Source of the DNA: Immundisolibacter sp.
GTDB lineage: Bacteria > Pseudomonadota > Gammaproteobacteria > Immundisolibacterales > Immundisolibacteraceae
Length of the DNA stretch: 64,000 nt
Assembly: GCF_014359565.1 (NCBI RefSeq)
Contig: NZ_JACIZD010000001.1
Span: 62,001-126,000 of the forward strand
Reading direction: 5' to 3'
Part shown: positions 11,692 through 58,699 of the stretch, piece by piece
How the letters are laid out: each line of letters opens with the position of its first letter
How positions within the stretch are numbered: position 1 is the first letter of the stretch
The notes under the pieces: generated by a model
Seen by the model: the letters and a program-made list of their open reading frames with translations, nothing else
The model's database searches: none
What the model was told of the DNA's origin: nothing
Position numbers and translations under genes: made by a program

Positions 11692-11788
11692 GGTGTCGCG
11701 TTCTCAGGGAGGCAGAAATCCAGCGGCCGGCCATACGCCGCCCGCCTGCGGTGACGCCGGCCGGGCCGGCCGCGCGGGCGCGCCGGGT

Positions 11789-12070
11789 TCAGTCGAAGTC
11801 GAACAGCTCGCCGAGCAGGCTGCGCTTGCGCGATTTCGGATGGCGATGATCGCGACCGCGATAGTCGTCATCACCGGGACGAAGATCGTGCTCAGGCGGC
11901 GCCTGCCGGGGCGCCGCTCGCGGACGGCCCTCATTGGCGCCGGCGCGTTCGATGATCTTGTCCAGTTCGCCGCGGTCCAGCCACACGCCGCGGCAGCGCG
12001 GGCAATAATCGATCTCGATGCCGTGGCGCTCGGTCATCTGCAGGTCGAGCTGGCAGTTTGGGCATTGCAT
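11789..12070 (-). CDS. TFIIB-type zinc-ribbon protein
   Basis: 93-residue cytoplasmic protein. The N-terminal 42 residues form a zf-TFIIB domain: MQCPNC, then YCPRCRGVWLDRGELDKII, giving four Cys for one zinc. The remainder is a basic, low-complexity tail ending LLGELFDFD. The ATG at 12070 is preceded by GGAGG at good spacing; longer readings of this frame would run into htpX. Such proteins are widespread and uncharacterised. Co-directional with htpX, 35 bases apart, so probably cotranscribed. Confidence 0.8.
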   Translation of the reverse strand: MQCPNCQLDLQMTERHGIEIDYCPRCRGVWLDRGELDKIIERAGANEGRPRAAPRQAPPEHDLRPGDDDYRGRDHRHPKSRKRSLLGELFDFD

Positions 12071-12105
12071 GGCGACATCCTCCGGGTGATCGGAAAAGGG
12101 GCGGC

Positions 12106-12984
12106 TCAGAGGGCTGCGCGCAGCGCCGCGATGCGCTCTTCGAGCGGCGGGTGGGACATGAACAATCGCGCCAGCGCCTTGCCGCCCAGGATGCCGAAGG
12201 CGTTCAGCGAGGCCGGCAGCGCCTGTGGCTCGTGCACGGCGCGCAGGCGCTCCAGCGCGGCGATCATGGCGCCACGCCCGGCCAGCCGCGCGCCGCCGGC
12301 ATCGGCGCGAAATTCTCGCCGGCGGCTGAAGGCCATCACCACCATCGTGGCCAGGATGCCCAGCAGCAGCTCGCACACCAGACTGGTGATCCAGAAGCCG
12401 GGACCGGGCGCCTCGCGCTCCTGCCCGCCGGCCAGCGCCCGGTCGACGGCGTAGCCGACGATGCGCGCCAGCGCGATCACGAAGGTGTTGACCACGCCCT
12501 GGATCAGCGTCAGGGTCACCATGTCGCCATTGGCGATATGGCTGATCTCGTGCGCCAGCACCGCCTCGACCTGGCGCCGGTCCATCTGTTCGAGCAGGCC
12601 GCTGGATACCGCCACCAGCGAGCGCGCGCGGCTGGGGCCGGTGGCAAAGGCGTTCGGCTGCGGCGAGTCAAAGATCGCCACCTGCGGCATCGGCAGGCCG
12701 GCCATTTGCGCTTGCCGCGCCACGGTATCGAGCAGCCAGCGCTCGGTGGCGTCGGCCGGCTGGCCGATCACCCGCGCGCCGGTGCTGCGCACCGCCATCC
12801 AGCGCGACAGGGCAAGGGAAATCAGCGCCCCGCCCATGCCGAACACGGCGGCAAATCCGAACAGCGCCGGCAGGTCGAGGCCGTTTTGGGTGAGGAACCG
12901 ATCCACGCCGAGCAGGCGGCTGGTCACCGCCAGCACCGCCAACACGGCGAGGTTGGTAAGCAGGAACAAACCGACACGTTTCAT
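12106..12984 (-). CDS. htpX: Membrane zinc metalloprotease HtpX
   Basis: 292 residues, full length for HtpX. Two N-terminal transmembrane helices (about 7-25 and 38-60), then the M48 peptidase domain with the zinc motif HEISH at 145-149 and the third-ligand region later in the chain (EFRADAGGARLAGR). Two more hydrophobic segments lie at about 155-175 and 195-215. HtpX degrades misfolded membrane proteins in the inner membrane. It is divergent from the NhaR-like regulator across 110 AT-rich bases, and upstream of the zinc-ribbon gene on its own strand. Confidence 0.94.
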   Translation of the reverse strand: MKRVGLFLLTNLAVLAVLAVTSRLLGVDRFLTQNGLDLPALFGFAAVFGMGGALISLALSRWMAVRSTGARVIGQPADATERWLLDTVARQAQMAGLPMPQVAIFDSPQPNAFATGPSRARSLVAVSSGLLEQMDRRQVEAVLAHEISHIANGDMVTLTLIQGVVNTFVIALARIVGYAVDRALAGGQEREAPGPGFWITSLVCELLLGILATMVVMAFSRRREFRADAGGARLAGRGAMIAALERLRAVHEPQALPASLNAFGILGGKALARLFMSHPPLEERIAALRAAL

Positions 12985-13044
12985 GGCGAGCCTCGGATTT
13001 CAGATAACGACGCCGGGGCAGCCTACGACAAGCTTGATAACAAC

Positions 13045-13058
13045 AAAAATCGATTTTT
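13045..13058. promoter_or_regulatory. AT-rich perfect palindrome between htpX and the NhaR-like gene
   Basis: AAAAATCGATTTTT, a perfect 14-base palindrome in the 110-base divergent intergenic region, 37 bases before the regulator start. Position and symmetry suit an operator; the protein that binds it is not known. Confidence 0.35.
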
Positions 13059-13094
13059 TAATGGTCCATACCTAATGTAATTCCGAGTAAATGG

Positions 13095-14021
13095 ATGCGC
13101 GGCCTCAACTACAACCACCTGTACTACTTCTGGACCGTGGCGCGCGAGGGCAGCGTCATTGGCGCGGCCAAGGTGCTGTTCCTGACGCCTCAGACCATCA
13201 CCGGCCAGTTGCGCGCGCTGGAGCGCACGCTGGGTGGACGGCTGTTCGCCCCGGCCGGGCGGGGCATTGCGCTCACCGAGCTCGGGCACCTGGCGTTCGG
13301 CTACGCGCAGGAAATCTTTCGGCTGGGCTCGGAAATGCAGGCCGCCGTCGCCGGACGCAGCATCGACCGGCCGTTGCCGTTTCGCGTGGGCGTCGTGGAT
13401 GTGCTGTCGAAGGTCATCGTGCAGCGCCTGCTGGCGCCGGCCCTCGCCCTGGACCGCCCGGTGCAGCTGGCCTGCCGGGAAGGCCCGCTCGAGGATCTGG
13501 TGGCGGAACTGGCGCTGCACAGGCTCGACCTGGTGCTGGCGGACACGGCACTGGCGGCCAATCTGGAGCTGCGCGCCTTCAGCCACCTGCTGGGCGAGTG
13601 TGGGATCAGCTTCTTCGCCGCGCCGGGCCTGCGCGAGCGGCATCCGGGGCGGTTTCCGGACCTGCTGCGCGAAGCGCCGCTGCTGCTGCCGGCACCCCGC
13701 GGGGCGCTGCGCGGCGCCATCGACCACTGGCTGGACCGCCATGACATCCGTCCGCTGATCGCCGGCGAGTTCGACGATGCCAGCCTGATGAAGTCCTTCG
13801 GCCAGGCCGGCGTGGGCGTGTTCACCGGTCCGAGCGCGGTGGCGGACGACATCGTGCGCCAGTACGGCGTGGTCCTGATCGGCGCCACGGACGAAGTACG
13901 CGAGCGCTTCTACGCCATCTCGACCGAGCGGCGACTGCGCCACCCGGCGGTCCGAGTGGTCACCGAAGGCGCGCGCAGTTCGCTGTTTCTTTCCGGCAAC
14001 GCCGAAAAACCGTATCCATGA
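13095..14021 (+). CDS. LysR-family regulator, NhaR-like
   Basis: 308 residues. N-terminal winged helix-turn-helix (about 5-65) starts LNYNHLYYFWTVAREGSVIG and includes LFLTPQTITGQLRALE, the NhaR variant of the LysR DNA-binding helix. The C-terminal part is a LysR substrate-binding fold. NhaR activates the sodium/proton antiporter gene nhaA and biofilm genes in Escherichia coli; no nhaA is in this window, so the target is unknown. It is divergent from htpX, so it may also control that side. Start is the second of two nearby ATGs; the first (13091) is in another frame. Confidence 0.85.
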   Translation: MRGLNYNHLYYFWTVAREGSVIGAAKVLFLTPQTITGQLRALERTLGGRLFAPAGRGIALTELGHLAFGYAQEIFRLGSEMQAAVAGRSIDRPLPFRVGVVDVLSKVIVQRLLAPALALDRPVQLACREGPLEDLVAELALHRLDLVLADTALAANLELRAFSHLLGECGISFFAAPGLRERHPGRFPDLLREAPLLLPAPRGALRGAIDHWLDRHDIRPLIAGEFDDASLMKSFGQAGVGVFTGPSAVADDIVRQYGVVLIGATDEVRERFYAISTERRLRHPAVRVVTEGARSSLFLSGNAEKPYP

Positions 14022-14042
14022 CGTTTTCAGCTCGCCACATCC

Positions 14043-14072
14043 AGGATTCCGCTGCACTTCATCCAGGCGACG
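14043..14072 (+). repeat. Dispersed extragenic repeat R1, copy c (next to the IS110 element)
   Basis: Same 30-base element with two or three changes, lying 22 bases after the NhaR-like gene stop and 38 bases from the transposase stop codon. Confidence 0.75.
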
Positions 14073-15300
14073 CTTATTGGCAGTGGCGGGTAGATACCGT
14101 CTCTCCCGGTCAAGCGATTTTTGCCACCAGGGCGGGGTTGAAGGGAGCCTGATGCTTGAGGATGCCAAAGGCGATGTGGACCAGGCGGCGCATCAGGGCG
14201 CCCAGGGCCGACATCTTGGTTTTGCCGCGCCCGATCAGGTCCAGATAAGCCTTACGCAGCGGTGGGTTGTGGCGCGAGGCGACGATGGCGGCCATGTACA
14301 GCGTGGCGCGCAGGCGCGGATCGCCTTGCTTGGACAGGCATGGACGCTTGTAGACGCTGGTCCCGGACTGGTATTCGATCGGCACCAGGCCGGCACAGGC
14401 GGCGGCCTGGCGGGCCGACTCAAACCGATGCCGCTTGAGCAGGCACAGCAGGCGCCGGGCGCAGGCATCACCCACGCCGGGAATGGTTTTGAGCTGATCG
14501 CGCGCCTGCTTGAGCGGTGGATGCTGGTCGTAGTGGGCGTCGATGGCGCGCAGCAGCCGCTCGCGTTCGGCGCGCAAGGCACTGAGCGAACGCTGCAGCG
14601 AGTCCCGCACCGGGCCGGGCGTATCGGTTGCCTGCGCCTTCTCCAAGCGGTTCTCCTCCCGTTGCAGGTCCTGCGACACCGCATCCAGGCGCGCCACCAG
14701 CGCGCGCAGGGTGCGGATTTCCGGCGTCGGCGGCAGCCACGCCACCAGCTCATCGCCTTCGGCGCCGTAGCGTGCCAACAGGCGGGCGTCGACGGCATCG
14801 TTCTTGGTCAGCAGGCCACGACCCTTGGCATAGTCGCGTACTCGCTTGGGGTTGGCGATGACAACCTCGTAACCGGCGTCATGGAACACCTGTGCCGCCG
14901 CCTCGTGATACACGCCGGTGGCTTCCAGCACCACCCGACAAGCCGACGGCGCCAGCGCTGTTTTGGTACGCAGCCACTCGATCAGGGTATGAACCCCGGC
15001 CGGTTGGTTGTCGACCTTGGCCTTGGTGTGCCACTTGGACCGATCGCCCAACCACAAGGCCGCATCCAGCGTGGCTTTAGACACATCGATACCGAGCGTT
15101 ACCGTTTTCACAACGTGCCCCCGCTCTGTTCATCACATGACCGCGATCCGCGCCTTGGCCGTGAGGCCGTGCTTTCCTTGTCCATGCAGACTCTCAGGCA
15201 CTGCTGGGTCTTGGACTACCGTTCAGTTTCAAAAGGCGCACAGCGGCACGGCGGGGTTGATCTACGTCACAGGCTCGCAGCCTCAGGGTGGGCACAATCT
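14073..15300 (-). mobile_element. IS110-family insertion sequence (approximate limits)
   Basis: Limits are estimates: IS110-group elements lack long terminal inverted repeats, so the ends cannot be read without an empty site. Left limit is set after repeat R1 copy c; right limit allows about 190 bases of non-coding DNA upstream of the transposase start, where family members encode the bridge RNA. Element sits between the NhaR-like gene and AT-richer DNA. Confidence 0.55.
14110..15111 (-). CDS. IS110-family transposase (DEDD recombinase)
   Basis: 333 residues, intact. The N-terminal DEDD_Tnp_IS110 RuvC-like domain has D9 (TLGIDVSKATLDAA), E63 (LEATGVYHEAA), D105 and D108 (KNDAVDARLLARYG). A coiled linker (about 130-185) leads to the Transposase_20 domain with a helix-hairpin-helix (TIPGVGDACARRLL) and the serine-containing SKQGDPRLRATLYMAA region that supplies the nucleophile. 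IS110 elements move a circular intermediate guided by a bridge RNA encoded in a non-coding end. No frameshift or stop is seen, so the element may be active. Confidence 0.95.
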   Translation of the reverse strand: MKTVTLGIDVSKATLDAALWLGDRSKWHTKAKVDNQPAGVHTLIEWLRTKTALAPSACRVVLEATGVYHEAAAQVFHDAGYEVVIANPKRVRDYAKGRGLLTKNDAVDARLLARYGAEGDELVAWLPPTPEIRTLRALVARLDAVSQDLQREENRLEKAQATDTPGPVRDSLQRSLSALRAERERLLRAIDAHYDQHPPLKQARDQLKTIPGVGDACARRLLCLLKRHRFESARQAAACAGLVPIEYQSGTSVYKRPCLSKQGDPRLRATLYMAAIVASRHNPPLRKAYLDLIGRGKTKMSALGALMRRLVHIAFGILKHQAPFNPALVAKIA

Positions 15301-40427: not shown

Positions 40428-40474
40428 TGCGCCGAACCCTCTGCCCCGGACTCTCCGCCACCACCAACACCAAA

Positions 40475-40503
40475 GGTCTGGATAGTCTCCAGGCCCTTTT
40501 TTT
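40475..40503 (+). terminator. Rho-independent terminator of the barrel gene
   Basis: Stem GGTCTGGA / TCCAGGCC (one G-T pair), 5-base loop, followed by C and seven T's. Confidence 0.85.
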
Positions 40504-41097
40504 CTTACATCCCCGCCTGGCGCGCAGTCCCGGGCGTCTGCCCGGCGGGTCGCAGGCCTGCCAGAAGCGCCGCACCGGGCCGATTTCCGGCTATCCAAGT
40601 CTCTTTTTGTTCCATTGTTAGTCGCAAGGCGGAACTGCGCATTTACGCGAGTTTTGCGTGGCCTCTGCGCCGTCAGCTGTGCCTACCGATTGGCCGACAA
40701 ATCGCTACACATCGCACTGTGCGACCACCTGCAGCTGCTCGATCCAATCCTGAAGCCGGCGCGGGCTTCAAGCGTTCCCGTCAAAACCGTTCCCGAACAA
40801 GGGGTAACGCGCAAACCCCGCAACGGCGCCATTTTTCCGGCTTCCGGCGGTTCATCACTAAAAACACAGGGTGAGTATCGGGAATGCTCCCCTCCCTCGA
40901 TGCCAATGGGTGGCCGGGCACGGGAACGATGCCCCCAGCCGGAGGACACGGCCCAACAGGGCAAGTCTGGCGGCAATGACGTAATGAGGTAATGGTCGAG
41001 GCGATTAGCGTATTGATATGTAAAAATAAAACCGGTCCGCCACTGACAGATGCCACCTCCCTGATAGTGTCTCGGGACCACAACGCGGAATCCAGAA
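40504..41097. other. Non-coding stretch at the left edge of the defence-like island
   Basis: Nearly 600 bases with no convincing gene on either strand; composition falls toward the right end (AT-rich near 40990-41040). Confidence 0.45.
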
Positions 41098-41435
41098 ATG
41101 CGCACAGTGACAGGCATCCGTCCGGCCGAGCCCGGCCGTCGGGCAGTCGATGACGCCAACAACCCGCGCCCACCGTCTGGTTCGATTCCCGGCGGCAGCT
41201 GGCGTGCATGCTGTCGGACGAGAACCGCGCGCTGCTGCGCCTGATGCGCGCGCTGCAACCCAATCCCGCACGGTGCTGGAGCTGGCCGAGTGGTCCGGCC
41301 CCGCGGCCAGCAATGTGTTGCGCACTCTGCGTCACCTGGAGCGCCACGGCCTGGTCAAGCAGCACCACGAGCCCAGACACCCGCGCCGTGCGCCCGGAAG
41401 CACTGGCCACCGAATTCTTGATCGTGTTGGATTGA
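41098..41435 (+). pseudogene. Broken TumA/HVO_A0114-type HTH antitoxin-like gene
   Basis: Pieces of one winged-HTH protein appear in order but in different frames: MRTVTGIRPAEPGRRAVDDA (frame of 41098), then VWFDSRRQLACMLSDENRAL and LRLMRALQP (from 41175), then TVLELAEWSGPAASNVLRTL and RHLERHGLVKQHHE (another frame), then VRPEALATEFLIVLD to a stop at 41433-41435. Reassembled it is about 110 residues, the normal size of DNA-binding antitoxins paired with TumE-type toxins. At least three indels break it. No recognisable toxin gene lies upstream. Directly precedes the AlbA-domain gene. Confidence 0.65.
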
Positions 41436-41476
41436 TGGAGAAGGAGAATGAATAAAAGTCAGCAGGAGTGCGCCGT

Positions 41477-43114
41477 TTGAGCCAGGAAGGCCAACTCCTC
41501 GACCAAAAATCCTTGCGGTCCGTGACCGGCAAGAGCGCCGACTGGAACGAGCTGGTCAAGGATTGCATCGCCTTCGCCAACGCGACGGGCGGTCGTTTGC
41601 TGCTCGGCATTGAGGACGGCCAGAACAAGCCACCCGCAGGCCAACGGATTCCTGCCGATCTTCCGGACACCATCAGGCGCAAGATTGCCGAGCGCTGCGT
41701 CAACGTGGCCGTGCTTCCGGATGTCGTTACCGCAACCAATGGCGGTCAGTACATCAACCTCGCCATTCCCCGGGCCATCGCGGTGGCATCGACCACCGAT
41801 GGCCGCTACTTCCTGCGCCTGGCCGACCAGAGCAAACCTGTCACGGGTGACGACGTGCTCCGATTGGCGGCGGAGCGGGGGGCTCTACCGTGGGAAACAC
41901 AGACCACGCTGCAGGTGCCCAGATCAGCTACCGATCCGGACAAGCTCGGCAAGCTGGTGAATGCGCTGAGGGCATCCGACCGCGTCAAGCCGTCCGTCAA
42001 GGAAAAGTCCAATGACGAACTGCTCGATCATTACCAGCTCGCGCAAGGTGGCTACCTGACCCACCTGGGCATCCTTTGTCTGGGACAGCAGCATCAACGT
42101 GCGCAGCTGACCACCGCCCCAGTGATCCAGTTCATCAAGTACGACGAGCGCGGCCAGAAGGTCAACAAGCTGGTGTGGGACGACCACACGTTGAATCCGA
42201 TGGAGCTGATTGAGGTCGTCTGGCTGGAAGTGCCTGATTTTCGCGAGCGCTACGAATTGCCCGATGGCCTGTACCGCCAGAACGTGCCCGCCTTCGACGA
42301 GGTGGTGGTACGCGAGCTTCTGGTCAACGCGCTGGTGCATCGTCCCTACACCCAGCGCGGCGACATCTTCCTGAATCTGCACCCGGATCGACTGGAAGTG
42401 GTCAACCCGGGTCCGCTGCCGCTGGGCGTCACGCCGCAAAACGTGCTGCACACCACCGTGCGCCGCAACGAACATCTGGCCCGTCTGTTCCACGATCTGA
42501 AGCTGATGGAGCGCGAAGGCAGTGGCTTCGACAAGATCTTTGAGGTGCTGCTGTCGCAGGGCCGCCCGGCGCCGGAGCTGATCGAAACTCACGACCGCGT
42601 GCAGGTCACGGTACGCCGCCGCATTCTCAAGCCCGAGGTCATCGACTTCATCGCCAAGGCGGACCAGACCTACCAGCTCACCCAGCGCGAACGCATTGCC
42701 TTGGGCTTGCTGGCGCAGCACGATGCCATGACCGCCCGGGAGTTGGCCGCTGTGTTGGAGCTGCCTACGGTCGAGGCACTGCAACCGTGGATCAAGCGAC
42801 TGCTGGAATGGGAGCTGATACGCAGCGCGGGCCGCACGCAGGCCACACGCTATTTCGTCGATCCGGGGCTACTGCGCAATCTCGATTTCGCCGGGGAAAC
42901 GACCCTGAAGCGGATCGAACCGCACCGGCTCGCGGCCTTGATTCTGGAAGACCTGAAGCGCTACCCAGAATCGGCCATCGGCGATATCCGTCAGCGCATC
43001 GGCAGCGAAATCCACCCCAGGCAGGTCAAACGTGCGCTGGACGGCCTGGTCGACAAGGGCGACGTGCGCTTTACGGGTGACAAGCGCTGGCGACGCTACT
43101 GGGCGGTGTCATGA
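41477..43114 (+). CDS. AlbA_2/Schlafen-type ATP-binding regulator
   Basis: 545 residues from a TTG with AGGAG 8 bases upstream (a GTG at 41468 is the alternative). N-terminal AlbA_2 (Schlafen-like) domain (about 5-125) with LVKDCIAFANATGGRLLLGI (about 27-46); then an HATPase_c_4 domain with VVRELLVNALVHRPYTQRGD (about 277-296) and an EGSGFDKIFEVL segment; then one or two winged-helix domains in the C-terminal third (RELAAVLELPTVEALQPWIK and SEIHPRQVKRALDGLVDKGD). Such proteins act as DNA-binding regulators and often occur in defence islands. Follows the broken antitoxin-like gene and precedes the SIR2 gene by about 660 bases. Confidence 0.85.
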   Translation: MSQEGQLLDQKSLRSVTGKSADWNELVKDCIAFANATGGRLLLGIEDGQNKPPAGQRIPADLPDTIRRKIAERCVNVAVLPDVVTATNGGQYINLAIPRAIAVASTTDGRYFLRLADQSKPVTGDDVLRLAAERGALPWETQTTLQVPRSATDPDKLGKLVNALRASDRVKPSVKEKSNDELLDHYQLAQGGYLTHLGILCLGQQHQRAQLTTAPVIQFIKYDERGQKVNKLVWDDHTLNPMELIEVVWLEVPDFRERYELPDGLYRQNVPAFDEVVVRELLVNALVHRPYTQRGDIFLNLHPDRLEVVNPGPLPLGVTPQNVLHTTVRRNEHLARLFHDLKLMEREGSGFDKIFEVLLSQGRPAPELIETHDRVQVTVRRRILKPEVIDFIAKADQTYQLTQRERIALGLLAQHDAMTARELAAVLELPTVEALQPWIKRLLEWELIRSAGRTQATRYFVDPGLLRNLDFAGETTLKRIEPHRLAALILEDLKRYPESAIGDIRQRIGSEIHPRQVKRALDGLVDKGDVRFTGDKRWRRYWAVS

Positions 43115-43630
43115 AAAGCCTATCGGACAGGCTGCGTCCTATCGGCCATGGTCGGGCAATAGAAAGTGGACGATAAACTCACAACGATCAAACAAATCAA
43201 AGGCTTATATAGATCACCATGGTTGTCTCGTGGTCGATAGCGGCACCACAGCCCCCCCCGCATTCCAGGACTTACGCATGAGTGCAGGCTTTCAGCAAGT
43301 CGCCAATTTCATAACGAAATCAAATCACGCGTCGGCGCACTGCGGGAACGCCAGCAAGGCATGGTCACATGCAGCATGCCTCCGTCTGCTGGGAGGTGGC
43401 GCGTGATCGCGGCCCAGAAAAAAAGGCCGCTGATTCGCTACGCGGGTTCAGCGGCGGAAACCTCGATAGGTTCAAAGCCGATAGGCAGTGAACTCGGCGT
43501 GAGAATGTATTCCGAACGGCCCCTTTGTCTTAGTCGAGCCGAGCTGGCGTTGGCTACAACCGGCGTCTATCTGCCCGGCTCGCGCCAAACCGCCGCGCCA
43601 AACGCACCTCTCCGCCGTGCCGCAGAGGGG
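43115..43630. other. AT-richer non-coding stretch between the AlbA gene and the SIR2 gene
   Basis: Over 500 bases without a convincing gene. A GCGGCC/GGCCGC hairpin with an A-rich 10-base loop lies at 43409-43430. It probably holds the SIR2-gene promoter. Confidence 0.45.
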
Positions 43631-43780
43631 ATGACCCACGAACAGGACGGTTGGCCTCCGCGCCGCGAGCAATCTCGAGTTGTGCGGATCTACGACCTGC
43701 ATTTCGCGTTGCGAGCCCGCCACGCCAACGAAGCGCTGATCCCGGCGACGCTCAAGCGCGTGTTCTGCGGGGCCCACTGA
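43631..43780 (+). CDS. Possible small ORF abutting the SIR2 gene, 49 aa
   Basis: Starts MTHEQDGWPPRREQSRVVRI and ends KRVFCGAH; its TGA is immediately followed by the GTG of the SIR2 gene, the arrangement expected for translational coupling. Basic (many Arg), no membrane segment, no family recognised. The frame stays open upstream to 43361 but that part looks non-coding. It could be a genuine small partner, or only the tail of an open frame. Confidence 0.3.
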   Translation: MTHEQDGWPPRREQSRVVRIYDLHFALRARHANEALIPATLKRVFCGAH

Positions 43781-46700
43781 GTGCAGTTCGTCCGCCGCGG
43801 CCCCGACATCCCGGAACGCCTGCTGCAGGCGCACGAGGACGGGCACGTGGTGTTCTTCTGCGGGGCGGGCATCTCCTACCCCGCGCGCTTGCCGGGTTTT
43901 GATGGCCTGGTGAAGGAACTCTATGCTGCGTTGGCCCCCACGCCTAACGCGGTGCAGCAAGCGGCAATCAAGGCTAAACAGTTTGACACTGCCATCGGCT
44001 TACTGGAAGACAACATCATCGGCCGTCGCAAAGAGGCCCTTGTTCGGAAGGCGCTCGCTGAAATCCTCACCCCGGATCTCACAGCCGCGAACGCGACGGT
44101 GGCCCACGAGTCGTTGCTGACGCTGAGCAAGTGCCGCAACGGCCACACTCGCCTCGTCACCACCAACTTCGATCGTCTGTTCGAGGAGGTGATTGCGGCG
44201 AAGTCCCTGCCCATCGAGCGGTTTCAGGCGCCGCTGCTGCCGGTGCCGAAGAACCGTTGGGACGGACTGGTCTATCTGCACGGCCTGCTCAGCGCCACGC
44301 CGACCGCGAGCGAGCTGGATCGGCTGGTCGTCTCCAGCGGTGATTTCGGATTGGCCTATCTCACCGAGCGCTGGGCGGCGCGTTTTGTCAGCGAACTGTT
44401 TCGCAACTACACCGTGTGCTTCGTCGGCTACAGCATCAACGACCCGGTACTGCGCTACATGATGGATGCCCTGGCCGCCGACCGCCTGCTCGGCGAATCG
44501 CCGCCGGAAATGTTCGCCTTCGGCAGTCACACCAAAGGCAAGGAGGATGAGCGCGCCAACGAGTGGCGGGCCAAGAACGTCACGCCCATCCTCTACCGCG
44601 AACACAACAGGCACGCCTATCTTCACAAGACCCTGCGCGCCTGGGCCGAAACCTATCGCGACGGCGTGCGCGGCAAGGAGCGCATCGTGGTCGAGTGCGC
44701 CATGGCCCGGCCCTTGGCCAGCACCCGGCAAGACGACTTCGTCGGCCGCCTGTTGTGGGCGTTGAGCCATTCGGGTGGCCTGCCGGCCAGACGCTTTGCC
44801 GAACATGACCCGGTGCCATCACTGGATTGGCTGGAGCCCTTGAGTGAGGAGCGCTACCAACACGCCGACCTGGGCCGCTTCGGCGTCCCGCCCGAGACGA
44901 CCGTGGATGCCAAGCTCGCCTTCAGCCTGACCCGCCGGCCTTCGCCTTATCCTCTGGCGCCGGTGATGTGTTTGGTCGATGCCGGCGCGCATGGCAGTCG
45001 CTGGGACAAAGTGATGTGGCAACTGGCGCGCTGGCTGATCCGTCATCTGGACGACCGGGACCTGTTGCTGTGGCTGGTCAAACGTGGCGGTCGGCTGCAT
45101 GACGATCTGGTCTGGTTGATCGAACGCCGTCTGGACGAGTTGGCTAAACTCGAGCGCGAGGGCAACACGGCGGAGTTGGCACGGATTCGCGCGAACGCAC
45201 CCAACGCGATCCCCGGTCCGTTGATGCGCACCTTGTGGCGACTGCTGCTGACTGGGCGCGTCAAATCAAGGCTGCGCGACTTCGACCTGTATCGCTGGCG
45301 CGACCGTTTCAAGCGCGATGGCCTTACCGCTACCCTGCGCCTGGAACTGCGCGAGATGCTGACACCACGCGTATCGTTGCACGAGCCGTTCCGCTTGACA
45401 GCCGAGGACGGCGAAAGCCGCGAGCCAGAGCGCATCAAGGATCTGGTGGAATGGGAGATCGTGCTGTCGACGGATCACGTCCATTCCAGCCTCCGCGATC
45501 TGCCCGAGGATGAGCGCTGGACCGCCGCATTGCCGGAGCTGCTGTCCGATTTCACCGCCTTGTTGCGCGATGCGCTGGATCTCATGCGCGAGCTCGGCAG
45601 CGCGGAGGACAGAAGCGACCTGTCCTACATACGTCAGCCCTCGATCAGGGAGCACCCACAGAACCGGGGCTTCCACGGCTGGACTGCATTGATCGACCTC
45701 AGCCGCGATGCTTGGCTGGCCACAGTGGCGCAGTCGCCAGCACGGGCAGCGCTGGTCGCGCAGTCCTGGTGGCACACGCCCTATCCGCTGTTCCGGCGTC
45801 TCGCCTTCTTTGCCGCCGCACAGGACAACGTGATACCCCGTCGCCAAGCACTCGACTGGCTGCTGGCGGACGAACACTGGTGGCTGTGGTCAGTGGAAAC
45901 CGAACGGGAAGCCATGCGCCTGCTGGTGGCGCTGGCGCCGCACCTCAATGGGGTAATGCTGCGAAAGCTGGAGCAAGCCGTACTCGCCGGGCCTCCGCGA
46001 GACATGTTCAAGGATGACGTCGAGCCCGAGAGCTGGACCTGGATTGTGGAACATGAAACCTGGCTGCGGCTGGCAAAAATGGCTGAGGGCGGTTCAGCCT
46101 TGGGCGCTGACAGCAGCGAGCGGTTACAGGCACTTTCGGCACAGTATCCGGAGTGGAGGCTGGCAGAGGATCAGCGCGATGAGTTTCCTTACTGGATGGG
46201 CGACGGCGACGAGTGGCGCAAGTTCGTAACCACACCGCGTCGTCGCCGTGAACTGATCGAGTGGCTCAGGCAGCAACCTAGCACAGATCATTGGCGGGAA
46301 GACGACTGGCGACAGCGCTGTCGCGACAACTTTGCCACGACCGTTTGCGCCTTGTGCGCCTTGGCCGGGGAAGATGTCTGGCCAACGAATCGTTGGCGCG
46401 AGGCCCTGCAAGCCTGGTCAGAGGAAAAACTCCTGAAGCGCTCCTGGCGTTACGTGGCACCGGTGTTGATCACTGCGCCCAACGATGTGCTGCAAACGCT
46501 CGCCCACGGCGTTGGCTGGTGGTTGCAGTCCATCGCCAAGACCTTCGAAGGCCACGAAGCACATTTCTTCACGCTCGCTCGCCGTATCCTGGCGCTGGAT
46601 CAGCAAGACAGCGCCGATACCGACGACCCCGTCAGGCGCGCCATCAACCATCCCGTGGGCCACGTCACCGAGGCACTGCTGCGCTGGTGGTATCGACGCT

Positions 46701-47569
46701 CGCTGGATGATGGACAAGGCTTGCCCGAGGAGCTCAAGCCCACGTTCACCGAGCTTTGCGATACCCGGATGGACAAATTTCGGCATGGCCGCGTATTGCT
46801 GGCAGCGCATGTCATCGCGTTGTTCCGCATCGACGGGGATTGGGCGACGCGACACCTGTTGCCGCTTTTCGACTGGCAGCGCTCGGAAGCCGAAGCACGT
46901 GCGGCGTGGGAAGGCTTCTTGTGGTCACCGCGCCTGTACCGTCCTCTGATGGAAATGCTCAAGCAGGCCTTCCTCGACACCGCGCGCCACTATGCGGTAT
47001 TGGGCAAGCACGACGGGCAATACGCATCGCTGTTGACATTCGCCGCGCTCGACCCAGGTGACACCTTCACCATTCCAGAACTGGCAGCCGCTACACGCTC
47101 ACTACCGCCGGACGGTCTGCACGAATCAGCGCAAGCTCTGGTCAGCGCGCTGGAGGGCGCGGGCGATCAACGGGCCGACTACTGGACCAACCGGGTCGTC
47201 CCATACCTCCACGCCATATGGCCCAAGACCCGGGACCATATTTCACCCGCCATCGCCGAAAGCCTCGGCCGCCTGTGCGTGGCGGCACAGGATGCGTTCC
47301 CCGCAGCCTTGGCGCTGCTGCGCGCCTGGCTGCAACCACCGGCCCATCCCGACTACCTGGTGCATCGTCTTCATGAGGCCGCTCTTTGCGGCAGGTTCCC
47401 TGAACAAGCCCTCGAGTTCCTCAGCCTGGTGACGGGGGATCAGGCCGAATGGCCGCCTAGCGACCTCGGCGCTTGCCTTGACGCGATACGGACAGCCGCG
47501 CCGCAACTTGAGGCTGACCCGCGCTTTGAACGGTTGATGGCATACCTGCGCCAGCATGGCCGGGGATGA
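43781..47569 (+). CDS. SIR2-domain protein, candidate anti-phage NADase, 1262 aa
   Basis: N-terminal SIR2 domain (about 15-290): NAD-binding FFCGAGIS (25-32), TTNFDRLFE (127-135) with the conserved Asn129, catalytic His167 in YLHGLL, and FVGYSINDPVLRYMMDAL (214-231), the SIR2_2 signature. The rest, about 970 residues, is mainly alpha-helical, Trp-rich and unassigned. This layout (SIR2 plus a large C-terminal sensor) is that of defence-associated sirtuins such as DSR1/DSR2, which deplete NAD+ when they sense a phage protein. Starts at GTG abutting a small ORF's stop. Neighbours are an AlbA/HATPase regulator and a broken antitoxin-like gene. NADase activity is inferred from the residues. Confidence 0.85.
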   Translation: MQFVRRGPDIPERLLQAHEDGHVVFFCGAGISYPARLPGFDGLVKELYAALAPTPNAVQQAAIKAKQFDTAIGLLEDNIIGRRKEALVRKALAEILTPDLTAANATVAHESLLTLSKCRNGHTRLVTTNFDRLFEEVIAAKSLPIERFQAPLLPVPKNRWDGLVYLHGLLSATPTASELDRLVVSSGDFGLAYLTERWAARFVSELFRNYTVCFVGYSINDPVLRYMMDALAADRLLGESPPEMFAFGSHTKGKEDERANEWRAKNVTPILYREHNRHAYLHKTLRAWAETYRDGVRGKERIVVECAMARPLASTRQDDFVGRLLWALSHSGGLPARRFAEHDPVPSLDWLEPLSEERYQHADLGRFGVPPETTVDAKLAFSLTRRPSPYPLAPVMCLVDAGAHGSRWDKVMWQLARWLIRHLDDRDLLLWLVKRGGRLHDDLVWLIERRLDELAKLEREGNTAELARIRANAPNAIPGPLMRTLWRLLLTGRVKSRLRDFDLYRWRDRFKRDGLTATLRLELREMLTPRVSLHEPFRLTAEDGESREPERIKDLVEWEIVLSTDHVHSSLRDLPEDERWTAALPELLSDFTALLRDALDLMRELGSAEDRSDLSYIRQPSIREHPQNRGFHGWTALIDLSRDAWLATVAQSPARAALVAQSWWHTPYPLFRRLAFFAAAQDNVIPRRQALDWLLADEHWWLWSVETEREAMRLLVALAPHLNGVMLRKLEQAVLAGPPRDMFKDDVEPESWTWIVEHETWLRLAKMAEGGSALGADSSERLQALSAQYPEWRLAEDQRDEFPYWMGDGDEWRKFVTTPRRRRELIEWLRQQPSTDHWREDDWRQRCRDNFATTVCALCALAGEDVWPTNRWREALQAWSEEKLLKRSWRYVAPVLITAPNDVLQTLAHGVGWWLQSIAKTFEGHEAHFFTLARRILALDQQDSADTDDPVRRAINHPVGHVTEALLRWWYRRSLDDGQGLPEELKPTFTELCDTRMDKFRHGRVLLAAHVIALFRIDGDWATRHLLPLFDWQRSEAEARAAWEGFLWSPRLYRPLMEMLKQAFLDTARHYAVLGKHDGQYASLLTFAALDPGDTFTIPELAAATRSLPPDGLHESAQALVSALEGAGDQRADYWTNRVVPYLHAIWPKTRDHISPAIAESLGRLCVAAQDAFPAALALLRAWLQPPAHPDYLVHRLHEAALCGRFPEQALEFLSLVTGDQAEWPPSDLGACLDAIRTAAPQLEADPRFERLMAYLRQHGRG

Positions 47570-48032
47570 GGTGGTGTCTTTGGCGGGCGCGAGTTCTCCG
47601 GAAACTCCGGAAAGCTGCGCCCCCAACCGCAACCCTCCAGCGATGCCAGACAGTTACCTACCCGCAGGTTCGCGGGAATTTGCACCCGTTCGCAACGGCC
47701 CGAAATGGCTGACCGAGGGACCATTTCTGCGATCAACCATCCGCCAGAACGGTTGCCACGCGTGACCGTTCCACAGCGTGCAAGACCGCTGAGCAACCCG
47801 CAGCCCGGCCTGCGTAGCGGTTTGAATGGCGACAGCACGCCCCCTGTCGACCGCTTCCCGAGCGCCGCTGCCACAGGCGCACGCCGCGCCTTGAACCCAC
47901 TGCCCGTACACCGGCACACTGTGCTGCGCCCGGGCGTCTGCGGGGCAACCGGCCAGCGGTTCGCGTCCGGCAACCTCACGCCCGCGGTGCCGATTCGAAC
48001 GCCCGCCGCAGCCACAGCCGAGCCTGATCCCG
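47570..48032. other. Non-coding stretch between the SIR2 gene and mltD
   Basis: About 460 bases; no gene with family resemblance on either strand, no tRNA or attachment-site-like duplication seen. Likely right edge of the island. Confidence 0.45.
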
Positions 48033-49637: not shown

Positions 49638-52600
49638 TCAGCGGTTCTTCGATTGCGCGGGTGACATCATCCTTATTTCGACGGCATGGTCCCGGCGATC
49701 GTCGATCAAGTGAATGACTTGGTCCGGGCATTCGACACCATCCACCGTCATGTGCATCGCTTCGGCCCGCGCAGCGTCGCAGACGACTTCCTGCGTCACC
49801 GCGACATGGTAGACCGTCTCCCGATAGCGGTAGTGAAGCTTGAAAGCCTGCCAGTCCGCGGGCAGGCAGGGCGCCAGATGCAGCTGGTCGGCTTCGAGCC
49901 GCAAACCGAGCAACGATTCCATGATGAGGCGGTACATCCAGCCGGCCGACCCGGTGTACCAGCTCCAGCCGCCACGGCCGATGTGCGGCGCGACCGCATA
50001 GACGTCGGCGGCGACGACGTAGGGTTCCACCTTGTAAGTCGCGATGGCTGCCGGCGAACGCGCATGGTTCGCCGGGTTGATCATGGTCAGCAGCTCCCAG
50101 GCCCGTTCGCGATCGCCGAGCGCGGCAAACGCCATCGCCGCCCAGATGGCGCCGTGGGTGTATTGCCCGCCGTTTTCGCGCACGCCGGGCACGTAGCCGC
50201 GGATGTAACCCGGATCCACGGCCGATTTGTCGAAGGGCGGATCGAGCAGCTGGACCAGTTGGCTGTCGCGGCGCACCAGGCGCTGGTCGACCGAGTCCAT
50301 GGCCAGCAACGAGCGGGGCGAGCTGACCAAACCGGTCGCCCCGGATGGCCCGACCTGGGAGAGCACCGACCAGCTCTGCGAGATGGAATCGATCTGGCAT
50401 TCGGCGCTGCTCGCCGAGCCCAGCGGCGTGCCATCGTCGAACCAGGCGCGGCGGTACCAGGCGCCATCCCAGGCATGCGCGTCGAGGTTGTGGCGCAGCT
50501 GCTGCGCCTGCGCCAGGCAAAAGTCCGCGAAGGCGGTGTCGCCATGCCCGCGCGCCAGCTCGGCAAACTGCCGCAGCACGGCGCACAGAAAGAACCCCAG
50601 CCAGACGCTCTCGCCGCGGCCCTGCATGCCGACCAGGTTCATGCCGTCGTTCCAGTCGCCGCCGCCCATCAGCGGCAGGCCGTGCGCGCCGAAACGCAGG
50701 CCGTGGCGGATGGCGCGCACGCAGTGTTCGTACAGGCTGGCTGAATCGGGCGAGCGGCCCGGCAGGTCGTAGTAGGAATCGTCCTCCGGGTTGACCGGCC
50801 GGCCCTCCAGGAAGGGCACGGGCTCGTCCAGCACGCCGGTGTCGCCGATGCTCGCCACGTAGCGGCACACCGCCAGCGGCAGCCACAGGTAGTCGTCCGA
50901 ACAGTGGGTGCGCACGCCGCGGCCGGCCGGCGGATGCCACCAGTGCTGGACGTCGCCCTCCGGGAACTGCCGGCTGGCGCACAGCAGCAGGTGTGCGCGC
51001 ACCAGCGCCGGCTCGGCATGGACCAGCGCCATGGTGTCCTGCAACTGGTCACGGAAACCGAAGGCGCCGCCGGACTGGTAATAGCCGCTGCGCGCCCAGA
51101 CGCGGCAGGCAATGGTCTGGTACAGCAGCCAGCCGTTGGCCAGCACATTGACCGACGGGTCCGGGGTTTCCACCTGCACCGCGCCCAGGGTGTGGTTCCA
51201 GTAGTGCCACACGGCTTCCAGTGCTGTGCGCGCCGCTGCGCCGCCGCGAAAGCGCTGCACCAGCGCGGCGGCATCGTCGGCATTGCGCCCGACGCCGAGC
51301 CGGAACACGATCTCCTGCTCCTGCCCGTCGGCCAGCTCGAAACTCACCTGGATGGCGCCGCAGGGGTCCAGGCCCGCGCCGACCTTGCCGGACAGGCGCG
51401 CATGCCGCAGCGCCGCCGGATCGCGCAGGCTGCCGTTGCGGCCCAGGAATTCCGTGCGATCGCCAGTTACCCGCCGCATCGGGTCGTCGACGTCGAAGAA
51501 GGCCACCGGCTCGGCGAACTCGGGGTTGTAGGGGTTGTGGGCGCACAGCGCACCGCTTTGCGGGTTGAGCTCGGTGGTCACGTGCATGGCCGATTTGGCC
51601 GGCAGATCGCCCAGCACCCACTCCACGTAGCCGGTCGCCGAGAGTTTGCGCGCCCGTCCCGACAGATTGCGCAGCTTCAGCACCGAGAACTTGACCGCCG
51701 CATCGGTGGCCACGTACACCCACAGCTCCGAGCGGATGCCGTGGCTGACGTGCTCGAACACGCTGTAGCCGAAGCCGTGCCGGGTGACGTAGGGCGCTTG
51801 GGCGCGCGCCGGCAGGGGCGTCGGCGACCAGAACTGGCCGGTTTCCTCGTCGCGCAGGTACAGCGCTTCGCCGCTGCCATCGCTCACCGGGTCGTTGTGC
51901 CAGGGCGTGAGGCGGAATTCGTGGGCGTTCTCGCTCCAGCTGTAGGCGCCGCCGCTCTCCGAGACCACGGTGCCGAAGTGGGGATTGGCAAGCACGTTGA
52001 CCCAGGGCGCGGGCGTCACCTCGCCGGGCGCGAGCGCAATCACATATTCGCGCCCGTCGGGCGTGAAGCCGCCGAGGCCATTGGCCAGGATCAGATCGCG
52101 CCGGGTGAGCGCGGGGTCGATGGGGGCGCCGGTTTCCGGCCGTGGCGCCCGGCTGGGCACCAGGCGCGGCGGTCGCGGCTCCACCGGCCCGCGCCGGCCG
52201 AGCTGTTCGGCCAGGCTGCCGCGGTCGTCGGCGATCACCGCGCGCGCCACCGCCTGGAACAGGATGCGATCCTCGGCGGAGATCTGTTCCGCCGAGCGCA
52301 CGAAGATGCCGCCCGGCCGGTCGATCACGCTGGCCTCGGTGCCAGACGCGATCAAGCCCATGATCTGGTCGTGCAATTGCTGCCGGTAACCGGCGTGATC
52401 CTCGTTCCAGATCACCAGGTCCACCGCCAGCCCCTTCTGGCGCCAATAGGCATGGGCCTGCACCAGTTGCCGCACCAACTCCATATTGGCCGCATCGCCG
52501 ATCTGCAGCAGCACGATCGGCAGATCGCCGGATATGGCATAGCCCCACAGCCCGGACTGGCCGCGGCGATTGCGGATCAGCACCGCGGGGTCGGCGCGCA

Positions 52601-55600
52601 GGACGTCGTCGGCGTAGATGACGGCGCTCGCCAGGCGCGCATACAGCTGCGCATCGGCTTCGCTGGCATTGAGCTGGCGCAGCACCACTTGGCTGTGGGT
52701 CCAGCTGAGCTCGAACACGCGGTCGGCCAGATACCGGTCCTGGTATTTGTCCACCAGGCCGAGCGCCCAGTCGCGGCTTTCGGCAACACCGGACACGATG
52801 TCCACGGTCACCGACTGTTCCGGCTCCAGGCTCACCACGCGGCGGATGGCGACGATCGGGTCCAGCACCGAACCGGCGCTGCCGGACAGCGCGCCGGACT
52901 CGCTCATTGCCAGCGGCGCGGCCGGGCTGCGCGTGCGGCCGATGAAGCGCAGGCGGTCGGTTTCGAAAGACGGGGCGCTCGCCTGCTCGCCGCGCACCAC
53001 CATCAGGTGCAACATCCAGGGCGGCCGTTCGTCGTGGGCGCGGGGCCGGCGCGTGCACAGGATGGCGCGCCGCTCGGGCAGCAGCTCGGTCTGTACGAAC
53101 AGGTTGCTGAACGCCGGGTGCAGGGCGTCGGCAGCCGCCGGCGCGATCACCACCTCGGCGTAGCTGGTCAGCTCGATCTGCCGACTCTGGCGCGAGCGGT
53201 TGGTGATGCGCACCCGGCGCAGCTCGATATCGTCCTCGGGCGAGACCACGATGTCGGTATGGGTCTCGATCTGCCCGCGCTCCGCGCCGCTGCCGACGGC
53301 GTCGCGACGGCGAAACTCGGCGCGGCCCTCGGAGAAAATCGCCTCGAAGCGCTGCGCGCGCTTGCCGGTCGGCTGATGGGTGGTCGACCAGAACGCCCCA
53401 CTGGCGAGATCGCGCAGGTAACAGAAGCTGCCCCAGTTGTCGCAGGTGCCATCCTCGCGCCAGCGGGTGACGGCCAGGTCCTGCCAGCGGCTGTAGCCAC
53501 CGCCAGCGTTGCTGACCATGACGTGGTAGCGGCCGTTCGAGAGCAGCTGCACCTGTGGCAGCGGCGTGTCGGCGGTGCCAAACACGCGTATCGGTACCTC
53601 CGCAGTGACTGCGGTGGAGCGCACCTCGGACAGCTGCGCCGTGTGCGGAAACAGCGCCGTGGCCTGCGGAACCCGCTCCTGGAGCAGCAGCAACACCGCC
53701 CGGAACATCGGTTCCGACACGAAGCGCCGCTGCATCGGCCGCTCGAGCAGCAGGTAGGCCAGTGCCAGCAGGCTCATGCCCTGGTGATGGGCCATGAACG
53801 AGCGCACGAGTGTGCTCGACTGCCCGCGCCGCTGGCGGGCCGGCGTGTAGTCGATGGCCTCGAAGAAGCCGAACCGGCCCAGCGTCCCTTCGGCGGCCAG
53901 GCGCTGCAGATTCACGCAGGCCGCCTCGGGCGCCACCATCAGCGCCATCACCGAGGCATAGGGCGCGATCACCAGATCCTCGGCCAGGCCGCGCTTGAGT
54001 CCCAGGCCCGGCACGCCAAAGGCGCGGTACTGGTAATTGAGCTGGGCGTCGACCGTGTTGTAGCCGGATTCCGACATGCCCCAGGCCACGCCGCGCTGCT
54101 TGCCGTACTCGATCTGTCTGGCCACCGCCGCCTGGCAGGTCTGGTCGAGCAGCGAGTTCTCGTAGCTCGGCATCACCAGCAGTGGCATCAGGTACTCGAA
54201 CATCGAGCCGCTCCAGGACAGCAGCGTCGGTGCGCCGGTGGTGCCCGTGAGCAGGCGTCCCAGGGCGAACCAGCTGTCCTGCGGCAACTGGCCCTGGGCG
54301 ATGGCGACGAAACTGGACAGGCGCGCTTCGGACGCCAGCAGATCGTAGTAGCCCGAATCCAGCCGGCGCTCATCGACGTCGTAGCCGATGGTCAGCAGGT
54401 TGCGCGCCTTGTCGAACAGGAAGTCGTAGTCGAGATGCGCGAATTCGCCGGCCTGCGCTGCCAGGGCTTCGAGGGTGGCGATACGCTCGCGGGCGCGCTC
54501 GCTGCCTTGCCTGACGCAGCCGAGCGCCGCCGTGAGCGCCTCGCGCTGCGCAGCCTCGGGCGCAGCGGCGATGCGCGCCGCGAGGCGCCCATCCAGGGTG
54601 GCGAGTTCGCGCAGGGTCGGGATGGCGGTGAGGTCCGGGCACGGCTCATCCGCCGCCCCGGCCACAGCGGGCGCCGTCGCCGCTGGCAGTTCCGGCAGCG
54701 CCAGCCAGGGCGCAAGGAACATCAGATCGTCCTGCGCCGCCCGGCACTGCCCGGCCAGCGCTTCGGCCCAGATGCGCGCTTCATCGTCGGGCGCAGCCTC
54801 GCCACTGCCGGCGCTGGCGAGCGCAGCAGCGCGGGTTGCCAGGCCTTCGAGACTGGACCGCAGCGCCGCCAGGGATCCCGGCGGGGCGGCGCAGAGGGAG
54901 TCCAGTTCCCTGCGTAACCCAGCCAGCTGCCGGGCGGCGGCAGCCGTTGCGTCCGCGACGATCTCCAGCGTGTCGCGCAGGCCCTCGAACAGCCGCGCCG
55001 GCAGGAGCCGGTCATCGGCCAGCGCCAGCAGGCCCGGGCGCAGGGTCAGCAAATGACCGGCGAGGTTGCCGCTGTCGACGGACGAGACGTACCTTGGGTG
55101 CAGCGGCTGCAAGGTCCGCATGTCGTACCAGTTATAAAAATGTCCCCGGTACCGCTCGAGGCCATCCAGCGTGCGCAGGGTATTGCCGGTGCGCAGGATC
55201 AGTTGTCCGGCCGTGAGGTAGCCGAAGTCGTAGGCGGACAGGTTCGCCAGCAGGGCGAGGCCGATGTTGGTCGGCGAGGTGCGGTGCGCGACCGGATCGG
55301 CGCGGTTGTCCTGCACGTTGTCGGGCGGCAGCCAGTGGTCCTCCGGGCCGACGAAGGTGTCGAAGAAGGCCCAGGTCCGCCGCGCCAGCGCGCGCAGAAA
55401 GCGGGTTTGATCCGCTGTCAGGGCCGCCTCGCGGCGCACCCGCGGGCGGCTGATCCACCAGGCGATGGCCGGTGATGCCAGCCACAGCAGCAGGATCGGC
55501 GTTGCCGCGATCGATGCCGCCGGGCGGGTGGCCAGCAGCAGGCCGGCACTGGCCAGCGCGATGGCGGGGGCGACCCACATGGCGCGCACGCTGGCGGCCA

Positions 55601-58478
55601 GATCGCTGCCACCGGACCGCGCCAGTTGGCGATCGACCTCGCTGGACGGGTTCCATTCCAGCAGCCGTCGGTGCGTGACCAGCATCCGCCACAGCGTGCG
55701 GGCGATGGCGTCCAGGCTGAACACCGCCTCATACGGCAGGCAGGCGAGCTCGAACGCCACCTGCGCCAGGCGCCGCGCCGCCGACCGCCCAACGGCGGCC
55801 AGATGTTGCCGCCACAGAACCTCGTCCGGCTTGCGGAATAGATCGAGCAGCGTGGCGCACAGCGTCGGCAGCGCCAGGATGGCGATCACCGCCAGGCTCC
55901 AGAAGCCCGGCGACCCCAGCGCCCAGCCCGGCAACAGCAGCAGCGTCAGGGCCGCCGGAACCAGGCTGCGGCGCAGGTTGTCCTGCAGCTTCCACTGCGA
56001 CAGCGCCGACAGCGGATTGCGCTCCCGTGGCGCGCCGGGCGGGCCGGGCACGCGTCGGCGCAACCAGCCCGCCAGTTGCCAATCGCCGCGAATCCAGCGC
56101 CGGCGGCGGCTCACGTCCAGGCTGTAGCGGGCCGGATAATCCTCGTAGAGCTGCACGTCGCTGAGCAGCCCTGAGCGCGCGTAACAGCCCTCCAGCAGGT
56201 CATGACTCAGGATCCGGTCGTCCGGAAAGCGCCCGCCCAAGGCCTGCTCGAAGGCGTCGACGTCGTAGATGCCCTTGCCTATGAACGAGCCCTCCCCGAA
56301 CAGGTCCTGGTAGACATCCGAGACGGCGCGCGTGTAGGGATCGATGCCCGCCTCGCCACTGAACAGCTGCGCATAGCGCGAGCGATTCGCCCCCGGCAGG
56401 CTGGCGGCCACGCGCGGTTGCAGGATGCCGTAACCGGCCATCACCCGGCGTTTTGCCGCGTCGTAGCGGGGGCGGTTCAGCGGATGCGCCATGGCGCCGA
56501 CCAATTGCCGCGCCGCATCGCGCGGCAATTGGGTATCCGTGTCCAAGGTGATCACGTACTGCACGGCGCCCAACTCGGCCGTGTCCCCGGCCACCAGTAC
56601 AAAGGCGTCGCCGGCGCTGCCCCAGCTGGCGCCGCGCAGCAATGCGTTCAGGTCCGCGAGCTTGCCGCGCTTGCGCTCATAGCCCATCCAGCAGCCTTCC
56701 CGCGGATTCCAGCGTCGCGGACGGTGGAACAGGAAGAACTGGTCGCCGCACGGCTGATCGCCGCCTCGCGCGTATTTCTGGTTCAGCGCCGCAATCCGCT
56801 GCTCGGCCAGTTGCAGCAGCGCTTGGTCCTCGGGAAGTGTTTCCTGCGGCGCGTCCGCAAAATCGGTCAGCAGGCCGAAGTGCAGGTGTTGGTCGCGATT
56901 GGCCAGAAACCGCACTTCCAGTGCTTCGACCAGCTCCTCGATGCCGGCGGTGCTGGTGAGCAGGGTCGGCACCACCACCAGCGTGCGCACCTGCGGCGGG
57001 ATGCCTTCGGAGAAGTCCATGCGGGGCAGTGGCTGCGGCGTCACCAGCAGGCTGGAGCACCAGTTCACCAGCGCCCCGGCCAACTGACTGGCCGCCAGCA
57101 CCGCCAGCACGCCCAGCGCCGCCCCTGCCCAGCGGGGTATTTCGGCAATCGGCATGCCCATCAGCAGCACAGCCGTGACGAGCGCCGTGAGCAGGACGAT
57201 CCCGCCCAGATAAACCGGCAGCGGCGCGCGGCCGAGCGCCCGGCACGCCGCCAGCGGCGAGCGGCGCACCTGCACCGCGCGCTCGAGCTGTGGCCGGCCC
57301 GCGTCGATCAGGTAGTAACCGACGTGCGAGGCGCGGGCATCGGCGCCGGCTGGCGTCTTTACCGCCGCGGTGCGCGCCAGCTCGATGGCTTGGCGCGCCA
57401 CCTCGCCCTCGTCCATGGCGCTCTTTTTTGCCATCGCCTCGACGGCGTGGCGGTAGCGGTCGCGGGTAGCAAAATCCATGCTGCGGTAGACATCGGCCGG
57501 ATCGTGGCGCAGCGTCTGATCGATGACGCTCAGGTTCTCGACGAAATCGCGCCATTCCAACGCACCCAGCACCCGCAGACTGCCGATGCTGTTGCTGATG
57601 GACACCTGGTCGGCGGCCTGTTGCTGGTTCTCCGACTGCACCAGCTGGGCGATGGTCAGGCCCGCTTCCGCCAGGCGCTGTTCGATCCAGCTCAGCGGCA
57701 GGGCCAGGGCCGGACCGCGTCCCTGCAGGCGGCGTGCGAGCTCGGCGACGAAGGTGCCGACCATCGGCGGATCCGAGCGCGCCATGTCGGCCACCACCAG
57801 GATCAGGCTCTTGGGATCCTGCTCGGCGGCCTGCGTCATGCGGTCCGCCCAGACATCGGCCAGGTCGCGCTCGGCCCAGCCGGCGCCGATCCGCACCGCG
57901 ATGCGGCGCAGGTTCTCGATCACGGCCAGCCGCAACATGATCGGGATCGCCCACAACTCGCCGATGCGCAGCGCGGTGACGGTCTGGTAGGCGGCTACGA
58001 AGCGGCTGAGGCTTTGCGCGTCCACCCGGCCGTCGCCGTGGGCGATCGTTTCCAGGGCGATGTCGTAGACCCGCGGATGTCCCGCCGCCGAGGCCTGAGC
58101 GAGGTGCGGCAGCTCGCGTATGTAACCTTTGGGCAGGTGCCTCCGCGCGGTACGGATCTGTTCTTCGACCAGATGGAAGTTGTCGAGCAGCCATTCCCCG
58201 GCCGGTGTGATCTGGCGCCCTTGCGAGACCGCCGCGGTCAGCAGATTGCACACCCCGACCAGCGCCGTCTCGTTTTCCGCCAGACGATCGAGCAGCCGGT
58301 CCGCTGCGCGCCCCGCCCCCAGCCGATGCGAGCGCGCCAGCACCAGGCCGTGCTCGGCCATCTGATCGGCGCTGAACAACTCCGATCGCAAGGGCGGTTC
58401 GAGGCTCGCCAACGGCCGGGGCCAGCCATTGCGGCCCGGCTCGGTCCCGGTACGCCGCGAATGACCGGTGAAGTTCAT
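49638..58478 (-). CDS. ndvB: Cyclic beta-glucan synthase, NdvB/ChvB type
   Basis: About 2946 residues from the ATG at 58478. Multi-domain inner-membrane enzyme that makes and cyclises beta-glucans (osmoregulated periplasmic glucans). Order: cytoplasmic N-terminal region; membrane helices near 430-480; GT84 glycosyltransferase with [10 protein letters not shown] near 645 and [11 protein letters not shown] near 790; more membrane helices near 860-1030; two sugar-binding repeats near 1646 ([20 protein letters not shown]) and 2163 ([20 protein letters not shown]); and a C-terminal GH94 phosphorylase domain with GGDWNDGMN near 2605. Length equals Rhizobium/Brucella homologues. DUF3096 gene follows on the same strand. 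Start codon lacks a strong ribosome site, so the N-terminus is less certain. Confidence 0.93.
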
Positions 58479-58699
58479 GCCAGTGTTCAATGCCGGGAAA
58501 GCCTTTGCTGAAGTGCGATCTGCACGACGCCTATCGCATCGGGCACGCAGGCCATCCATTCAGTGATCGCCCGCAGGGCGCCCAGCTTGCCCTCTTTTGC
58601 CACCGCGCACCGTGCCGCAGCGAACCTACGTTTGCCCGGCGCCGCGAAATTGCGCGGCATAGGGAAAAAACCACAGCCGGCAACGCCGGGCCCGCGGAG
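58479..58699. other. Intergenic region between the glucan synthase and thiD genes
   Basis: About 220 bases without a gene; should hold the glucan synthase promoter. No clear -35/-10 pair found. Confidence 0.4.

Follow-up and report, generated by a model that had tools for sequence, protein, structure and literature searches.

Described SIR2 defense systems

The closest described relatives of the gene considered here are the defense-associated sirtuins DSR1 and DSR2, which place an N-terminal SIR2 domain ahead of a large C-terminal part. Mutation of N133 and H171 abolishes the NADase activity of DSR2 (PMC11290490), and a review describes DSR1 as halting phage replication while sparing the cell, in contrast to DSR2 (PMC10952713). 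A trigger of Dsr1 is not named in the literature searched. The SIR2 NADases KomC, ThsA, and Avs5 share the SIR2 domain fold with the protein described below (Z 12.5-16) but are shorter proteins or parts of partnered systems and carry other sensor parts.

A full-length Dsr1 in Immundisolibacter

We examined a 64,000-nucleotide stretch of an Immundisolibacter sp. genome, referred to here as the window. It contains an uninterrupted open reading frame of 1262 codons, running from a GTG start to a stop codon and encoding the following features.

43781 to 47569, forward strand: dsr1, encoding the anti-phage defense-associated sirtuin Dsr1, 1262 aa
43781 to 44632, forward strand: SIR2 NADase-type domain, residues ~1-284, with N129 and H167
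44633 to 47566, forward strand: C-terminal helical solenoid, residues ~285-1262, a putative phage sensor and assembly region
45941 to 46390, forward strand: least conserved 150-residue stretch, residues 721-870

The NCBIfam equivalog model for Dsr1, NF041818, which has 1263 positions and a curated cut-off of 1400 bits, matches residues 2-1257 at 2007.6 bits (profile positions 2-1263), and the PADLOC Dsr1 model (PDLC02183) matches residues 1-1259 at 1716 bits (E=0). Over 1277 alignment columns, BLASTP finds the protein 52% identical, with 2% gaps, to the 1275-aa E. coli Dsr1 WP_029488749.1, which we take to be the protein first described as DSR1 (Gao et al. 2020). The two proteins thus share homology over their whole length, essentially the same length, the SIR2 motifs, and the overall layout, but differ at 48% of residues, most of them in residues 41-120, 721-870, and 1201-1262. 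Their neighborhoods also differ: the E. coli copy that we checked adjoins an integrase and phage genes, while the window copy adjoins a relic of hsdS. Closer homologs that have not been characterized, at 80-87% identity, occur in Dokdonella immobilis, Pseudomonas, Thauera, and several MAGs, with those of Dokdonella and the MAGs at 85-87% (87% for locus L011). Judged by its sequence, the window gene is an ordinary full-length member of the already described Dsr1 family.

The SIR2 residues that the initial annotation had reported as intact are all there: G28-A-G-I-S32, T127-T-N129-F-D131, H167, and F214-VGYSINDP222. Among 16-18 aligned homologs, G28, A29, G30, S32, T127, T128, N129, F130, D131, and H167 are invariant, as are F214, G216, Y217, S218, I219, N220, D221, and P222. 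N129 and H167 lie 38 residues apart, exactly the spacing of N133 and H171 in DSR2. Pfam places SIR2_2 at residues 125-270 (E=1e-23), and a single-sequence search matches KomC alone in the PDB. AlphaFold2 models built with 18 aligned homologs reach moderate confidence (pLDDT 73 and pTM 0.44 for residues 1-1200). In them the SIR2 domain is matched best by DSR2 chains, with Z of 16-17.5 (about 17) and 3.4-3.8 Å over about 250 residues, followed by ThsA and KomC at Z of about 16.

Linkage to type I restriction-modification genes

Directly upstream of dsr1, we identified the tail of a type I restriction-modification (R-M) specificity gene.

43670 to 43780, forward strand: 3' relic of the type I specificity gene hsdS

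Residues 357-390 of the Dokdonella HsdS align by tblastn with window positions 43670-43777 (E=6e-4), leaving an HsdS tail of 36 residues before dsr1, and the end of the PADLOC Specificity_I profile matches the same relic (E=0.008). Each of these E-values is modest taken singly; the call holds because the position, the frame, and the stop/start junction, in which the TGA of the relic frame abuts the GTG of dsr1, are as in L011 and L012, and because the blastn matches to L011, L012, and L019 share a start at 43717, within the relic. No match to HsdR or HsdM was found in the window.

In Dokdonella (L012), hsdR, hsdM, and hsdS stand directly before dsr1, all confirmed by Pfam, and the same order is found in Ramlibacter sp. 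WS9 (L019), with hsdR and hsdS identified by Pfam and hsdM by tblastn. These are the only two loci with an intact hsdR-hsdM-hsdS-dsr1 arrangement, and in both the ends of hsdS and dsr1 abut or overlap. Since the hsdS tail of the window abuts dsr1 in the manner of these operons, we read it as the remnant of one. Partial linkage takes several forms elsewhere, namely a partial HsdS in L011 (E=4e-17), an HsdS-like tail before dsr1 recognized by eye only in L016, an HsdR N-terminal relic in L020 (E=4e-17), and a methylase gene with an endonuclease-domain gene abutting dsr1 in L018. No R-M gene was found upstream of dsr1 at L013, L014, L015, L017, L022, the predicted-prophage loci, or most plasmid loci. 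Because intact operons, relics, and unlinked loci all occur, Dsr1 appears to spread in part within R-M operons, placed next after hsdS, and to persist once they are lost. The literature searched revealed no link of SIR2 proteins with hsdS operons, and we consider this one mildly unusual and noteworthy, without claiming a mechanism for it. In L019, a TOTE conflict-system primase-helicase gene (11742-14126; Pfam AEP-TOTE, E=1e-98) lies directly 3' of dsr1, beside the hsdRMS-dsr1 genes.

PrrC is known to guard the type I restriction system EcoprrI, and a similar role could be imagined for Dsr1 in this clade, made together with HsdRMS and firing when a phage disables restriction. The two intact operons with their touching hsdS and dsr1 ends, along with the hsdS tails, the hsdR relic, and the abutting methylase and endonuclease pair, speak for such a guard. 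The many homologs with no R-M gene upstream argue against it, as does the window itself, where dsr1 is conserved though the R-M genes are gone, and we regard it as very unlikely that Dsr1 of this clade guards type I restriction. It is likewise quite unlikely, if a shade less so, that the clade protein was the product of an operon end gene translationally coupled to hsdS, as it would still be in Dokdonella and Ramlibacter, and that it backs up HsdRMS as a NADase counterpart of PrrC, acting once anti-restriction by a phage has blocked the restriction system. We instead favor a Dsr1 that acts as a system of its own.

A horizontally acquired segment

The dsr1 gene and the hsdS relic lie in a segment with one further identified gene.

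About 40463 to 47741, no strand assigned: 7.3-kb insertion holding the gene at 41468-43114, the hsdS relic, and dsr1
41468 to 43114, forward strand: Schlafen/AlbA_2 and HATPase_c_4 protein, 548 aa

In G002, a genome of the same genus, the positions corresponding to 40463 and 47741 are adjacent, and the flanking genes are 92-94% identical. An insertion here, rather than a deletion in G002, is favored because G001 also lacks the segment. The comparison favors horizontal acquisition of dsr1 on a stretch of about 7.3 kb. The 7-mer TCCGCCA is present as a direct repeat at both ends (40457-40463 and 47735-47741), and the Dokdonella homology 3' of dsr1 stops at the same CCGCCA, an agreement that suggests, without proving, that the two share an element end. 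No integrase or transposase was recognized among the open reading frames examined in the insertion.

The Schlafen/AlbA_2 protein, recognized through Pfam SLFN_AlbA_2 and HATPase_c_4, has a 53% identical copy elsewhere in G002. We considered it as a partner of Dsr1 and set it aside, as it had no match at any other Dsr1 locus tested. Beyond the insertion, on the reverse strand at 49638-58559, a 2973-aa open reading frame resembles a cyclic beta-glucan synthase/glycosyltransferase, judged from its sequence only.

Sequence conservation and selection

The dsr1 gene is under purifying selection throughout. Overall dN/dS against four relatives is 0.13-0.16, or about 0.14, and by segment it is 0.11-0.24; being pairwise, these values are compatible with a recent relaxation. 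Positive selection on the C-terminal part was rejected on the same range, which holds in every segment. Residues 721-870 form the lowest 150-residue window of conservation among both close and distant homologs, with 0/500 and 1.6% of permutations as low, respectively, and are a candidate for the target-facing part. Residues 41-120, inside the SIR2 domain, and 1201-1262 are also variable.

Loss of the upstream operon, and of any promoter that it gave, means that expression of dsr1 is not assured, since a search around the gene gave no sigma-70-type promoter. This raises the possibility of a decaying copy, no longer functional, left after the operon was lost. The reduction of hsdRMS to a scrap and the use of GTG as start codon, in place of the ATG of most relatives, would fit such a history, but the full-length frame, the complete set of catalytic residues, and the low dN/dS speak for a maintained gene, making decay highly improbable. 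The reading of a working Dsr1 is the one that we carry forward.

The C-terminal region

Pfam names no part of the protein besides SIR2_2, so the C-terminal part could look unassigned. The initial annotation had described these ~970 residues as mostly helical, and in the AlphaFold2 models they are almost wholly so. Modeled in isolation, residues 285-1262 (pLDDT 80, pTM 0.52) are predicted to form a HEAT/ARM-like solenoid. The matches listed for this region are generic HEAT/ARM proteins whose Z, 12.6 at most, falls in the range quoted for common helical repeats, and for that reason we claim no specific structural relative.

DSR2 shares the N-terminal SIR2 domain and the large helical C-terminal part, but membership in DSR2 was rejected. 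The C-terminal regions have no detectable sequence similarity, DSR2 is absent among the matches listed for the C-terminal model, a C-terminal profile found no PDB sequence match, DSR2 included, up to E=10, and the PADLOC hits for the window protein include no Dsr2 model. Foldseek with the whole model ranked DSR2 first, at a TM of only 0.2.

The initial annotation was right that the protein is laid out as a defense-associated sirtuin and that it is longer than DSR2 (about 1005 aa). It had not recognized the C-terminal region as DSR1 or DSR2, whereas NF041818 and PADLOC both name Dsr1, and a length of 1262 aa is usual for that family. The distinct subtype that it proposed, with a trigger of its own, could draw on the region's lack of a Pfam name or a PDB sequence match, but the Dsr1 models cover this region end to end and the alignment with E. 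coli Dsr1 has few gaps, so a previously undescribed sirtuin subtype, distinct from both DSR1 and DSR2, is exceedingly improbable. A C-terminal match to a characterized subtype, the finding named in advance as refuting the proposal, is essentially what these comparisons gave. The trigger may differ from that of other Dsr1 proteins, as the distance to an assayed homolog is large enough.

Distribution of Dsr1

The family is patchy. The NF041818 cut-off is passed in 3/369 genomes sampled from the class, and a close copy of the E. coli Dsr1 gene is present in 74/5426 E. coli genomes. A tblastn search of the "phages" genome records returned no Dsr1 match; the E. coli type is present in predicted viral contigs, and one PHROG covers the family.

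Several loci have arrangements of their own. In Pseudomonas yangonensis (L013), dsr1 is flanked by two 95% identical copies of a NERD/topoisomerase zinc-finger gene (7069-7917 and 12360-13208); in a related Pseudomonas (L014), a copy was found upstream only, among the matches found. The flanking copies suggest movement by recombination. On the reverse strand of L074 (G053:C1:17000-36000), three dsr1-like genes stand in tandem; their identity to the window Dsr1 is 44-53%, and two or more of them are interrupted. A large restriction-helicase-like open reading frame precedes them, and a fourth SIR2-like open reading frame follows. A chimeric sensor in L059, where identity falls from 52% to 32%, was discounted because the frame is broken, so that the drop reflects damage to the gene.

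Proposed function

For the window gene, the analysis establishes membership in the Dsr1 family, catalytic residues that are conserved and intact, the layout of the domains, purifying selection, and horizontal acquisition. We consider it very probable that it encodes a single-gene anti-phage system, a full-length Dsr1 whose SIR2 NADase is triggered by a phage product, and that it is the survivor of an hsdRMS-dsr1 operon. By analogy with its family, the C-terminal solenoid would act as the sensor and bind a phage product, upon which the N-terminal SIR2 domain, with an activity and mode of triggering likewise expected from the family, would hydrolyze NAD+ and phage production would stop.

What had appeared to be a possible new subtype is thus settled as Dsr1, and the family gains one more well-placed homolog. 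Whether Dsr1 works alone or as a back-up to restriction can be addressed concretely in the hsdRMS-dsr1 operons of its close relatives.
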